This document shows positions 15,875 through 20,532 of a stretch of 45,746 nucleotides of DNA, one piece after another. The DNA comes from Acidobacteriota bacterium (GTDB lineage Bacteria > Actinomycetota > Acidimicrobiia > Spongiisociales > UBA5794). The stretch covers positions 1 through 45,746 of the forward strand of contig JADFQA010000026.1 in assembly GCA_022562055.1 (NCBI GenBank), read 5' to 3'. Both the position numbers and the translations under genes were made by a program. Position 1 is the first letter of the stretch; every line of letters starts with the position of its first letter. The notes beneath the pieces were generated by a model. That model did no database searches. It saw only the letters and a list, made by a program, of their open reading frames with translations, and had not been told where the DNA came from.

Positions 15875-17280
15875 CCGCTTGATAAGCGATTGTCATGTAT
15901 TGCGGTGAGGGCCGCTCGGTACCCGGGCATTCCATGGAATCCTGGGCCCGGCGTCGCGGCTGCTGATGCTAAGTAGACGCCTTTCCCGATGCGATGTGGG
16001 TGGCGGATGAGACGTGGTCGCCGAATGACAGCGCTGACGCCGAACTGTCCCATCCCGAGGTCGCCACCGACAAGATTCGCGTTCGAGCGTTCCAGTTCCG
16101 CTGGTGACGACACTGTCCGACGTAGTATCAATTTGGAGAAACCTGGGGCGAATCGTTCAACCTGACTCTCGATCGCCTCGGTCACATCGCTCGCCCATCC
16201 GTTTGGCACGTGTGCGTATGCCCACGCTGTGTGTTTCCCCGCCGGGGCACGTGTAGGGTCAACAACGCTCGGTTGCGTCAAGATCACAAACGGTTGATCG
16301 GATACCCTTCCGTTCCACATTGCCAGCTCGCTCGCCTCGATCTCAGCAACGGTACCGCCGAGGTGCACCGTCGCTGAGGCAGCGCAGATTGGATCTGACC
16401 ACGGGATTGCGCCATCAAGAGCCCAGTCGAGCTTGAATATCCCGGGGCCGCGTTTCGACTTTGCTAGACGCCTACTGACAGACGGAAATAGGGTGTCGCC
16501 GGCAATCCTCCCGGCCGCGGGGCCGGATGTCGCCAACAGGATCGCTGACGATGGTACGAGATCTGAGATGCTTGTGATACGTGTGTCCACATGGATGGTC
16601 CCACCGCTGCCAACGACGATCCGCTCAAGTGCGTCGATGACAGACTGGGTTCCACCGCTGACAACCGGCCACCCGACCGTTCGAGCAGCGGCTGCCAGGA
16701 TGAGGCCCACTCCAGTCACGCCGCGGACGGTGAAGGGCGCAACGGCGTGGGCCGCTATCCCTGCAAACAACAGGCCGGCCTCGTCGGTGTCGAATCGTCT
16801 GGCGCGCAGGTCGGCTCGCCGAAGAGCTCGGAACGCAAAGGATACGGCACGGGGCAGGTCCCGCATCGCTGGAAATGGCGCGGAAAACGCGATCCGAGTT
16901 GTCGCATCGACGTGGGTGGCTGAGGACGCTAGCCATCGATCCCACAACGCATCATCGAGGCCGACAAGGCCCGTATCTGGAGCCAAGCCGACCGCGGGTG
17001 CGTTGTCGCGAGGATGTGCAACCGCGACGATTGGGTTGAGGTACTCGACTTGACCATTCACCCCGAGGTCCGAGAACGCTGGGGAGAGGACAGCCATCGG
17101 CACCACTGACGCCCCTACGTCGTGCACGAATCCCGGTCTTCCAAGGTCGACAGTGCGGCCGGCACCTCCAATCGTGCTGGTCGCCTCGTACAAGTTCACT
17201 ACCCAGCCGCGCTGGGCGAGAAGCGCGCCCGCAGTGAGGCCGTTCACTCCGCATCCAACAATTGTCGCCGTCCGGTTCAT
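15871..17280 (-). CDS. FAD-dependent oxidoreductase, phytoene dehydrogenase-like
   Basis: The N-terminal dinucleotide fold (TIVGCGVNGLTAGALLAQRG then the acidic end LYEA) and the GGAGRT segment are typical of the CrtI/amine-oxidase group. The C-terminal FAD motif is VYLASAAATPGPGFHGMPGY, matching the carotenoid desaturase tail. The 469 aa length fits. Start ATG 17280 gives MNRTATIVG, the usual family beginning; the frame is open 10 codons further. No phytoene synthase or other carotenoid gene is nearby, so the substrate is unknown. It is possibly membrane-associated. Confidence 0.85.
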   Translation of the reverse strand: MNRTATIVGCGVNGLTAGALLAQRGWVVNLYEATSTIGGAGRTVDLGRPGFVHDVGASVVPMAVLSPAFSDLGVNGQVEYLNPIVAVAHPRDNAPAVGLAPDTGLVGLDDALWDRWLASSATHVDATTRIAFSAPFPAMRDLPRAVSFAFRALRRADLRARRFDTDEAGLLFAGIAAHAVAPFTVRGVTGVGLILAAAARTVGWPVVSGGTQSVIDALERIVVGSGGTIHVDTRITSISDLVPSSAILLATSGPAAGRIAGDTLFPSVSRRLAKSKRGPGIFKLDWALDGAIPWSDPICAASATVHLGGTVAEIEASELAMWNGRVSDQPFVILTQPSVVDPTRAPAGKHTAWAYAHVPNGWASDVTEAIESQVERFAPGFSKLILRRTVSSPAELERSNANLVGGDLGMGQFGVSAVIRRPRLIRHPHRIGKGVYLASAAATPGPGFHGMPGYRAALTAIHDNRLSSG

Positions 17281-17520
17281 CCGTTGAGTATTGCAGCGGC
17301 CGAGCTTCACTCAACACGTTTTTGGAGGCCTCCGACGGAGGCGTTGTCTTGGCGATCCGGGCGTCTCGACAGAGACAAGTCCGCACCGCAGGTGGTACCT
17401 CTAGCTTTCAGAGAACCTCGCAGCGCCGGTCCGAATCGGCGTTTTGAAGAAGGCACCAACTGTTTTCTGTTTTGCGTGCTAGCTCGTACGAAATCCGCCG
17501 AGCTGTGACCTCGGGGCGGG

Positions 17521-18213
17521 TCAGGTGTGGTCGGCGTTGGCGAGTCGCTGAAGCCCCGGAACGTCGACCGGTGTTATGCGGCGGTAACCGGTGGTAATGA
17601 GTCCGGCTTCGCGCAGGTCCGAAATTGCCTCGTTCACCGCCTGGCGGCTCACCCCCATGAGCGCCGCGATGGTCGCTTGCGACAACTTGACCTCTTCACC
17701 CTCGTCGACAATCAGGTCGGCCACACGGGCCTTGACGGTTCTGTGCATCAGCCGAAGGACCCGACGTTGGGTTCGTTCAAGTTGGCGAAGACCGGCCACA
17801 AGCCAGCGCAGGCAAAGCGCCGGGTGGCGTGCCAGTTCGGCCAGCAGCGGCTCTCGATCAAAACGCAAGAGTTCAACGGGTCCGGCCGCCTGGGCTGATG
17901 AGATGTATGGCTCATTGCTAAAGAGTGCAATGTCTCCAATGACGCCCCCCGGAAGGACGCGGGTCACAACTCTGCGGCCTGCGCCAGATCCGCGGTATAA
18001 CTCGACCGTCCCTTTCACGACAACGTAGGCGGCGATTGCTTCTTCGCCCTCGCGGAACAAATGGCTGCGATCAAACTTCTTCAGCTTGATCGCCACGCGA
18101 TCAAGCATCTCTATATCGTTGGGGTGCAGAGGCGAGTAGTCAGCTCGTCCAAAGCTCCTGGCCAGCCAATCAAGATGCTGTCGGTCGGCAACTTCAGTGT
18201 TTATTGCGCGCAC
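17521..18213 (-). CDS. Crp/Fnr-family transcriptional regulator
   Basis: It has an N-terminal cNMP-binding-type beta roll (about 30-140) and a C-terminal winged helix with helix-turn-helix LSQATIAALMGVSRQAVNEAI (178-198). The phosphate cassette reads GDIALFSNEPYISSAQA, lacking the arginine that contacts cyclic nucleotide phosphate, and there is no N-terminal cysteine cluster, so neither cAMP nor an Fnr-type FeS cluster is clearly the signal. It is transcribed away from the two membrane-protein genes; the 118 bp between contain a 17-bp palindrome. It probably controls them and itself. 230 aa, normal length. Confidence 0.9.
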   Translation of the reverse strand: MRAINTEVADRQHLDWLARSFGRADYSPLHPNDIEMLDRVAIKLKKFDRSHLFREGEEAIAAYVVVKGTVELYRGSGAGRRVVTRVLPGGVIGDIALFSNEPYISSAQAAGPVELLRFDREPLLAELARHPALCLRWLVAGLRQLERTQRRVLRLMHRTVKARVADLIVDEGEEVKLSQATIAALMGVSRQAVNEAISDLREAGLITTGYRRITPVDVPGLQRLANADHT

Positions 18214-18243
18214 GCCATGCGTAGTTCTCGATCTGTGTTATGG

Positions 18244-18260
18244 ACCCCGAGTGTCGGGGT
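18244..18260. promoter_or_regulatory. Palindromic operator candidate between Crp-family gene and membrane-protein gene
   Basis: ACCCCGA-GTG-TCGGGGT is a perfect 7-bp inverted repeat with a 3-nt centre. It lies 31 nt before the start of the regulator gene and 72 nt before the start of the divergent membrane-protein gene. Position and symmetry suit a dimeric Crp-family protein, though the sequence is not the classical TGTGA...TCACA site. Confidence 0.5.
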
Positions 18261-18331
18261 TCCGACAGTTCGTGAATAACCATAGCGTTGAATCGTTTTA
18301 CGATGTGAAGCACCCTATAAAGGAGGACATA

Positions 18332-19279
18332 ATGGCGTTCGATGCGCTTGTTACGCCTGAGAAAGGCAGTTCGGCTAGCACCGAGATCCCGCACACGAAG
18401 GTGGGCCTTATCGTTGGTGTCGTGGGGGTCATGATTGCCATGATCGCCTTCGTGGCTAACTTTGTTGCAGTCAGCTCTCTCCAAGACGGAGATGTTGTCT
18501 CAGCAAGGGAAACACTGGCATGGTCGTTTGGGCTTACGACCCTTGCATTCGGCACGGTGAAGTTCGGAATCGCAATCGTGTTAGTTGGCATTCTGATTCG
18601 GATTTGGTTCCGACTCGAATCGATCAAGGAAACCCTTCCAAAACTGAAATCCGGAGGCGAAGACAGCTATCGAGTTGGCAGCGATACCGAAACCGCCCAT
18701 GGGGTGGCCACGGTGACGGCCGATATCCCGGAGCCTCTGCCTATCCACAAGATGGCAAAGACAATGTGGGCACCGATGCTCGCGATGGGATACATGGTGC
18801 TCATAGCAGGCACCGTCATGTCGTTTGTGTGGTCTTCAGACGTGGCAACCGACCCGGGAGCAGCGTTCGATGCGGCTGCCTGGACTCAAGGATTGCAGTT
18901 CCTCGGTGAAGCATTGCTTCTTTCAGGAATCAGCTTCCTCTTGGGCTCGATCCTTGCCAATCTGCGAAGCGGCGGCGCCGAGGTTCAGAAAGCACTTGGG
19001 CTACCAGTTGTGACTCTGAAGATGCCCGTGACCGCCAAGGCGTTCGTCGGACTCATGATGATGGGGCTCATGCTCGGCATTGTGCAGTTCGTGTTCTACA
19101 TCGTCGTAACCACATCGACCGATCCTGGCCAGATCGCTACCGCGACTGCTTGGCTCGGCCCAACACGCGAGCTGAGCCTTGCGTTCCTGCTGAGCGGCAT
19201 TGTGCTCGCTCTCGCGACCATTGCGAACGTGCTCGGATTCCAGTTCAGCCGAATCAAGGGAATTATTGCCGGTACGTGA
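18332..19279 (+). CDS. Six-helix membrane protein of unknown function (first of a homologous pair)
   Basis: The start is set by AGGAGG (18321-18326) 5 nt before ATG 18332. The 315 aa protein has about six membrane helices (near residues 23-48, 66-91, 145-165, 187-208, 236-258, 277-300) and a charged cytosolic linker between helices 2 and 3. Residues from about 138 to the end align with the whole next protein: KxxxxMWAPM, ANLRSGGAEVQ and TLKMPVTAKAFVGLMMMG all have counterparts. I recognise no family. Histidines at the IPHTK and PLPIHK positions are the only obvious candidate ligands. It is likely co-transcribed with the next gene and controlled by the divergent Crp-type regulator. Confidence 0.85.
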   Translation: MAFDALVTPEKGSSASTEIPHTKVGLIVGVVGVMIAMIAFVANFVAVSSLQDGDVVSARETLAWSFGLTTLAFGTVKFGIAIVLVGILIRIWFRLESIKETLPKLKSGGEDSYRVGSDTETAHGVATVTADIPEPLPIHKMAKTMWAPMLAMGYMVLIAGTVMSFVWSSDVATDPGAAFDAAAWTQGLQFLGEALLLSGISFLLGSILANLRSGGAEVQKALGLPVVTLKMPVTAKAFVGLMMMGLMLGIVQFVFYIVVTTSTDPGQIATATAWLGPTRELSLAFLLSGIVLALATIANVLGFQFSRIKGIIAGT

Positions 19280-19323
19280 TTGCGACCACCCCGGTTCGTC
19301 ACATTATCTAAAGGAGAAACACA

Positions 19324-19938
19324 ATGGCCGCAACACTTACTTCATCATTCGACACCGAGGAGTCGAAGGTCCAACCAGACCTGAATCTTCCTCAAAAGCT
19401 GGGGAACAAGCTCTGGCTGCCCATGTTCTTTATGGGTTTGATGGGATTCGTAATCGGATTTGGGCTGCATCTCGCCAAGACAAGCGAAGTGGCTGATGCA
19501 ACCGACCCTGAGAAGATTTCTCAACTCGCCCACCTGGCAACTGCCTTCATGTTCATTGGATTCACCGCAGTATTCTCGGCCATCGCATTTGCGATTGCCC
19601 GCATACTGGGTGCATTCCGAACGGGTGGCGCATCGATTCAGCTAGCCAGCGGAAGCGCGGCGAAAACCCTCAAGATGCCGATTGAAGGCAAAGCCTTCAT
19701 TGGCCTGATGGCGATGGGCATGATGCTCCTAATCGGGGGTGTCATCGGGCACTTCATCGTCGCCGGCCAGGTTGGTGACAGCATGAGCCTTGAAGACGCC
19801 GAACTCTGGTCGATTCGACTTGAGGCAATCCGTCGTCTTGGCGTAGCCATTTACCTGCTGTCCTTCTTGCAGGGACTGGCGACCATCATCCGGGTATTGC
19901 GGTTCCAATCGCTCCGTATGAGAGAACTCGTCGGGTAG
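19324..19938 (+). CDS. Four-helix membrane protein, homologue of the C-terminal half of its upstream neighbour
   Basis: ATG 19324 follows AAGGAG by 8 nt. The 204 aa protein has four predicted helices (about 32-50, 70-95, 121-145, 166-190). It aligns throughout with the preceding protein: KLWLPMFFMG with MWAPMLAMG, GAFRTGGASIQ with ANLRSGGAEVQ, and TLKMPIEGKAFIGLMAMG with TLKMPVTAKAFVGLMMMG. The two are therefore products of a duplication and probably form a heteromeric membrane complex. The gene ends at a strong terminator. Function is unknown; nothing enzymatic is visible. Confidence 0.85.
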   Translation: MAATLTSSFDTEESKVQPDLNLPQKLGNKLWLPMFFMGLMGFVIGFGLHLAKTSEVADATDPEKISQLAHLATAFMFIGFTAVFSAIAFAIARILGAFRTGGASIQLASGSAAKTLKMPIEGKAFIGLMAMGMMLLIGGVIGHFIVAGQVGDSMSLEDAELWSIRLEAIRRLGVAIYLLSFLQGLATIIRVLRFQSLRMRELVG

Positions 19939-19960
19939 TACCGCAGTCCAGTCGACGCAC

Positions 19961-19992
19961 GAAAAAGCCCCGCCATATGGCGGGGCTTTTTC
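19961..19992. terminator. Strong bidirectional intrinsic terminator
   Basis: A perfect hairpin with GAAAAAGCCCCGCC and its inverse complement around an ATAT loop carries an A run on one side and a T run on the other. It therefore terminates both the membrane-protein operon (+) and the convergent HU gene (-). Confidence 0.95.
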
Positions 19993-20012
19993 ATGATGGT
20001 TCAGCGTTTCGC

Positions 20013-20306
20013 CTAGACGGCTACGCGATCCTTGAGACCCTTCGCCGGACGGAACTTCGCATGTTTCTTGGCCGCGATCTGGATTGTTTCGCCGGTGGCC
20101 GGATTACGCCCTAAGCGGGCCTTGCTACGGCTGGTATAAAACTTGCCGAAGCCACCGATCGAGATCTCACGGTCAGCGTCGAGCTCAACCGCAATGATGC
20201 CCTTGCCCGATTCCGAGCTGAAAATGATATCGATTACCTCTGCTGCCTTGGCCAAGCTGAGGTCGGCCTTCTTAGCGAGCTTGCTCGCCATCTCCGTTTT
20301 GTTCAC
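20013..20306 (-). CDS. HU-family nucleoid protein
   Basis: A small DNA-bending histone-like protein of 97 aa. It has the HU core: N-terminal helices (VNKTEMASKLAKKADLS), ISIGGFGKF, and the beta-arm motif GRNPATGE, ending in a lysine-rich tail. I place the start at GTG 20306, giving the usual (M)NKTE beginning, with AGGAG 6-7 nt upstream; the frame is open 19 codons further but that part is not HU-like. It shares the terminator with the convergent membrane-protein operon. Confidence 0.92.
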   Translation of the reverse strand: MNKTEMASKLAKKADLSLAKAAEVIDIIFSSESGKGIIAVELDADREISIGGFGKFYTSRSKARLGRNPATGETIQIAAKKHAKFRPAKGLKDRVAV

Positions 20307-20532
20307 AAGAACTCCTGTCTCGGTGCGGTCCGGGCCCTTTCCGGCCGCCTTGCAAGCGCCCAAACTACACGTGTTTCGGGAGAAATCGCAGTTTTTCCGA
20401 AAATAGTGCTACCCGCGGCTCATGAATGGCGGCGGGGCCATGGTTGGATGTGTCGTCGACGGCGATATGAATGGCCGGTCGATAACTCCGGCCCGGCCAC
20501 TATTTCGTGTCCAGACCGGAGTCGTTCGACGA

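Follow-up and report, generated by a model that had tools for sequence, protein, structure and literature searches.

A membrane-protein pair built from two-helix hairpins beside a Cmr-type regulator and its predicted operator

The 45,746-nucleotide stretch of DNA analysed here (the window) contains a Crp/Fnr-type regulator, R, that is divergent from two adjacent genes, A and B, which encode paralogous membrane proteins. Our best overall explanation, which we hold with moderate confidence, is that A and B would form a heteromeric, R-controlled complex that is made under stress. The parts of this explanation differ in strength. That R, or a close relative of it, controls the pair is very likely and has strong comparative support; actual binding by R and the direction of control are what we infer from it. 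Assembly of A with B into a heteromer is reasonably likely, and a redox or stress role for the pair, drawn from association, is a tentative suggestion.

R (230 aa as called from a GTG start) occupies 17521–18213 on the minus strand, with its conserved part starting near 18195. The predicted operator, TGTCGGGGTTCCGACA (18252–18267), overlaps a palindrome marked in a preliminary description of this DNA and lies 39 bp upstream of R's start and 80 bp upstream of A's ATG. On the plus strand follow A, a protein of 315 aa with three helix hairpins (18332–19279, or 18332–19276 without the stop codon), and B, a protein of 204 aa with two (19324–19938, or 19324–19935 without the stop codon). Each is preceded by a ribosome-binding site on the same strand (AAGGAGG at 18320–18326 for A; AAAGGAG at 19310–19316 for B), and strong sites recur before both genes in relatives. 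A terminator hairpin (19961–19992; fold −29 kcal/mol, z −6.65) with a 14-bp stem and TTTTTC at its end separates B from the convergent HU gene; because it is symmetric, it could serve both strands. Thus, the strong ribosome sites and the strong terminator noted earlier are both present. A sigma-70 promoter scan found no promoter, and it also misses the terminator, whose T run is inside the stem. An Rfam search of 17000–20500 gave no match. A and B are the sole genes of their kind in their genome.

Residues 118–312 of A align with residues 10–203 of B at 35% identity (E = 4e-27), including the shared motifs TLKMPVTAKAFVGLM / TLKMPIEGKAFIGLM and LRSGGA / FRTGGA. Six transmembrane helices are predicted in A and four in B. 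AlphaFold2 models of the monomers (mean pLDDT 85 for A and 92.3 for B) are mainly long helices, six and four respectively, apart from short strands where the TLKMP loop lies, indicating that B corresponds to the last four helices of A. The duplication with a two-helix difference that had been read from the letters is borne out by this paralogy and by the models. When the family profiles were cut into hairpins and compared with hhalign, the corresponding hairpins matched at 99%: hairpin 2 of A (aa 137–221; 18740–18994, plus strand, as are all hairpins) with hairpin 1 of B (probability 99.3), and hairpin 3 of A (aa 233–313; 19028–19270) with hairpin 2 of B (99.5). In-register likeness extended to other combinations (A2–B2 95%, A2–A3 73%, A1–A3 66%, A1–A2 51% and B1–B2 31%), and A1 and A3 barely matched the non-corresponding hairpins of B (3–7%). 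Control hairpins from two unrelated transporter families gave 0.1–2.6% with one exception at 44%, which calls for care with the weaker internal values. The first hairpin of A (aa 20–105; 18389–18646), which supplies the extra two helices, is a separate gene in a Chloroflexi relative (locus L034, 1074–2842). There a stop codon closes hairpin 1, and AGGAGG and a fresh start codon (ATG) come next; A is accordingly represented by two genes, hairpin 1 with its own ribosome site, and the whole by a three-gene version. This split indicates that A and B differ by one hairpin unit, which either became fused to the rest in Actinobacteria or was split off in Chloroflexi. Judged by sequence, A and B are paralogues of a repeated two-helix hairpin, present three times in A and twice in B. 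The loops after each hairpin are basic and the short turns are acidic or neutral; by the positive-inside rule, both ends of A and of B would lie in the cytosol. Several conserved charged residues (K77, E193 and R279–E280 in A; R170–R171 in B) were considered as occupants of equivalent hairpin positions, an idea with which the hairpin alignment disagrees. The A and B proteins of this genome contain no cysteine and no recognised catalytic motif.

No A or B score exceeded a curated cut-off in Pfam or NCBIfam, the best curated match for B being DUF3169 (E = 0.18; 11.8 bits against a cut-off of 31.6). The family profiles matched no PDB sequence even at E up to 10, Foldseek returned no PDB match to A or B below E 0.05, and PADLOC gave no model match and PHROGs no useful one. 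The preliminary description, which had placed the pair in no known family, agrees with these empty searches and with a PDB fold comparison that gave no convincing match; Pfam, NCBIfam and PDB likewise held no match to a well-known transporter or enzyme subunit. We therefore describe A and B, at the level of sequence comparison, as a membrane-protein family absent from curated databases. The same searches weigh against the pair having, in diverged form, a known transporter or channel fold that escaped them. That reading, which we consider possible rather than probable, would draw on the structural comparison, in which only generic helical bundles were matched: the top VIA-align Z scores of 12.0 and 12.7 are of a size that long-helix models usually give, and VIA-align covers Foldseek's top ranks and is blind to folds ranked lower.

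Among relatives, a whole-genome profile search (a single-protein contig scan had reached three loci) detected A/B in 22 of 99 genomes; in the class the count was 27 of 296, in the phylum 10 of 296, and in the Chloroflexi relative's phylum 4 of 400. These counts take in partial and decayed copies. Nearly every locus that has both genes has them side by side, in the same order wherever the locus is complete. This adjacency is kept in about 30 scattered actinobacterial genomes, which bears out conservation of A with B. Both genes are under purifying selection (dN/dS 0.06–0.21). No complete locus among the relatives and the class and phylum genomes clearly had one gene without the other, and the gene order is held over wide divergence. 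These two observations argue against separate homo-oligomers of A and of B, for example channels, whose co-expression would stem merely from the duplication. The strong ribosome site that each gene has of its own would suit such an arrangement, which we regard as doubtful, and we favour a heteromer of the two.

Most branches of the A/B tree follow genome families. The A gene of locus L037 (genome G021, family f1) is nested with good support in the f8 clade, a placement that suggests transfer between families and hence some transfer besides loss. At L054, L103, L104, L107, L108 and L110 the pair survives as truncated or frame-broken remnants; we read these as signs of repeated loss. The patchy spread (27 of 296 genomes in the class), the decayed copies and at least one transfer-like placement could all be expected of a mobile or defence cassette. 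However, neither PADLOC nor PHROGs gave a worthwhile match for A or B, no A/B relatives were found in viral contigs or plasmids, and no conserved mobile genes lie alongside, which makes a cassette of this kind very improbable. Besides Cmr-type regulators, the pair has no recurrent neighbours beyond close kin.

R carries a cNMP_binding domain (PF00027, E = 2e-17) and an HTH_Crp_2 domain (PF13545, E = 4e-12), both above cut-off, so the Crp-type label given to it earlier stands, and it can be sharpened. The best PDB match is Cmr, a stress regulator of Mycobacterium tuberculosis (5w5b/5w5a), with E = 1e-29 over residues 12–223 and 31.6% identity, whereas the next best among other Crp-family structures reached E = 1.5e-14. 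Moreover, R and Cmr have in common the motif W[IL]A..xGR..xPL ahead of the nucleotide-type domain. On these comparisons R is a homologue of M. tuberculosis Cmr. Cmr binds less well once Cys36 and Cys131 are nitrosated or oxidised, and an Ala substitution at either residue fixes it in the binding form (PMC5499769). In R, by contrast, the two cysteines are replaced by Ser and Leu. Among 44 regulators, a cysteine occurs at the Cys36 position in three and at the Cys131 position in none, and many are cysteine-free. Because both equivalents are missing, a Cmr-type cysteine switch cannot operate in R, and we have classed R as a homologue of Cmr and not as a cysteine redox sensor. R may bind always, or it may respond to another input. 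The motif at its nucleotide pocket, checked for the phosphate-binding Arg of CRP in an alignment without an E. coli CRP row, is GDIALFSNEPYISSAQA.

The pair promoters have a common motif, TGTC[G/A]-N6-[C/T]GACA, mostly 73–112 bp before the start of A, and this site recurs in many environmental Actinobacteria. At least nine of its ten consensus bases are matched in 19 of 26 pair promoters against 0.25 expected from shuffles, and the palindrome noted earlier between R and A is thus real and conserved. A matrix threshold was passed by 23 of 27 pair promoters and by 16 of 517 control genes in the same loci; the former figure, which accords with the regulated unit proposed in the preliminary description, is partly circular, as the matrix was trained on most of those promoters, while the shuffle test uses the consensus only. 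Several of the 16 control genes are divergent neighbours sharing the pair's own site. An independent test was provided by scanning with the pair-trained matrix before R and DUF3179 genes: of 35 R loci, 19 had a site ahead of the R gene where 0.31 were expected, and of 15 DUF3179 genes next to R, 11 had one (0.20 expected), with weaker results for TlpA (2 of 9) and CcdA (3 of 10). Two loci, L092 and L097, have no good site, and in the Chloroflexi relative neither the operator nor a close Cmr-type regulator was found. A pattern search returned 23 relaxed sites in the genome studied here; among those whose surroundings were read, the site between R and A is the only well-placed promoter copy. In L040, L101 and L102, tandem operators occur upstream of A, the two copies being about 21–25 bp apart. 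A GGTTG[T/C] element, perhaps part of the promoter, also recurs in pair promoters, ~34 bp downstream of the operator centre and before the ribosome site.

The predicted operator has the same half-site as the published Cmr site, TGTCAGCGTGCTGACA (PMC5499769), both being palindromes of the form TGTC[A/G]-N6-[T/C]GACA. Half-site mutations abolished Cmr binding, and the one site serves both autoregulation by Cmr and activation of the divergent gene (PMC5499769). Members of the R subfamily were found in 55 of 99 relatives, with a single high-score copy each, and they are present in 19 of 22 pair-positive but 36 of 77 pair-negative genomes (Fisher p = 7e-4; p = 0.005 by genus, with kinship ignored in both values). 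This co-occurrence, the motif before R's own gene and a half-site unlike the E. coli CRP consensus TGTGA-N6-TCACA speak against another Crp-family protein, such as a general CRP, reading the operator with the Cmr-type regulator as a bystander near some pairs. Such a reader is conceivable, given that Crp-type regulators are numerous in these genomes and that three pair-positive genomes (G020, G037 and G087; 92, 73 and 86% complete) have the pair and its operator with R not detected, but we judge it improbable and retain R or a close relative as the regulator of the pair.

Only about 8 of some 40 loci have a Cmr-type regulator as the immediate neighbour of the pair, and its orientation varies: it may be divergent from the pair, convergent with it, or codirectional on either the upstream or the downstream side. 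In many relatives R is found elsewhere, typically in the order TlpA–CcdA–MFS, R, DUF3179. The trio seen in this genome is therefore conserved in part: A and B stay together, whereas the regulator is mostly at another locus and is linked to them by the operator and by co-occurrence, the earlier alternative that the relatives never co-occur being contradicted by the genome counts. Similarly, the view of the locus as self-contained suits this genome, whose sole well-placed site is at the pair and its regulator, but not other genera, in which DUF3179 and TlpA–CcdA–MFS genes join. Perfect operators precede the TlpA–CcdA–MFS operon (L219, 2586–5329) and the DUF3179 gene (L220, 2992–4344) of G094, and another precedes a thioredoxin-like gene of G005 (L233); these genes are further predicted members of the regulon. 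A further DUF3179 gene, containing a single in-frame TGA, lies beside the regulator in L166, L167, L168 and L169 (G032, G005, G014 and G022). The TGA probably encodes selenocysteine, since DUF3179 is a listed selenoprotein family. Some DUF3179 (PF11376) proteins are selenoproteins with UxxC, and the function of the family is unknown (PMC9312934, PMC13188914).

Based on these findings, we propose a plausible mechanism. R would bind the one palindrome in the R–A intergenic region and through it would control both its own gene and the A–B operon, as Cmr does at cmr/rv1676. Co-expressed A and B, with three and two hairpins and ten helices altogether, would most likely come together in the inner membrane as one heteromeric complex whose termini and conserved loops face the cytosol. 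The complex would probably be made under envelope redox or respiratory stress, a setting suggested by the DUF3179 and sometimes TlpA–CcdA genes that the same regulator and operator serve in relatives; as A and B have no cysteine or catalytic motif, a redox role would derive from this regulon company only. We further speculate that the pair is a bipartite assembly of five copies of one two-helix hairpin, distributed over two subunits (three genes in Chloroflexi), that could serve as a membrane arm of Cmr-type stress regulons; a channel or transporter with pseudo-symmetry is one form it might take.

Through this analysis, a family of membrane proteins that curated libraries lack is assigned to a regulon with a characterised founding member, and naming the regulator, the site and the target operon makes the function of A and B testable. 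The comparison further points to Cmr-type regulation, known from work on a pathogen, as an older actinobacterial circuit whose targets and inputs differ. Finally, the hairpin repeat, split in the Chloroflexi relative, indicates that multi-helix membrane proteins can grow by two-helix units.

The predicted circuit is reminiscent of the M. tuberculosis locus in which cmr (Rv1675c) is divergent from the redox genes rv1676 and dsbF (PMC5499769). As there, a single site lies between divergent genes, autoregulation is predicted, and thiol-redox genes are in the neighbourhood, here in relatives of this genome. The divergent target differs, being a peroxiredoxin-like protein and DsbF in M. tuberculosis and a membrane-protein pair in the window. 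DUF3179 proteins resemble the pair in regulation, with an operator common to both in relatives and a gene often next to the regulator, but they are unrelated to A and B in sequence. The TlpA/ResA–CcdA thiol relay is located in the relatives' usual regulator locus, with a perfect operator in G094; it performs known thiol-redox chemistry, whereas the A and B proteins described here are cysteine-free.
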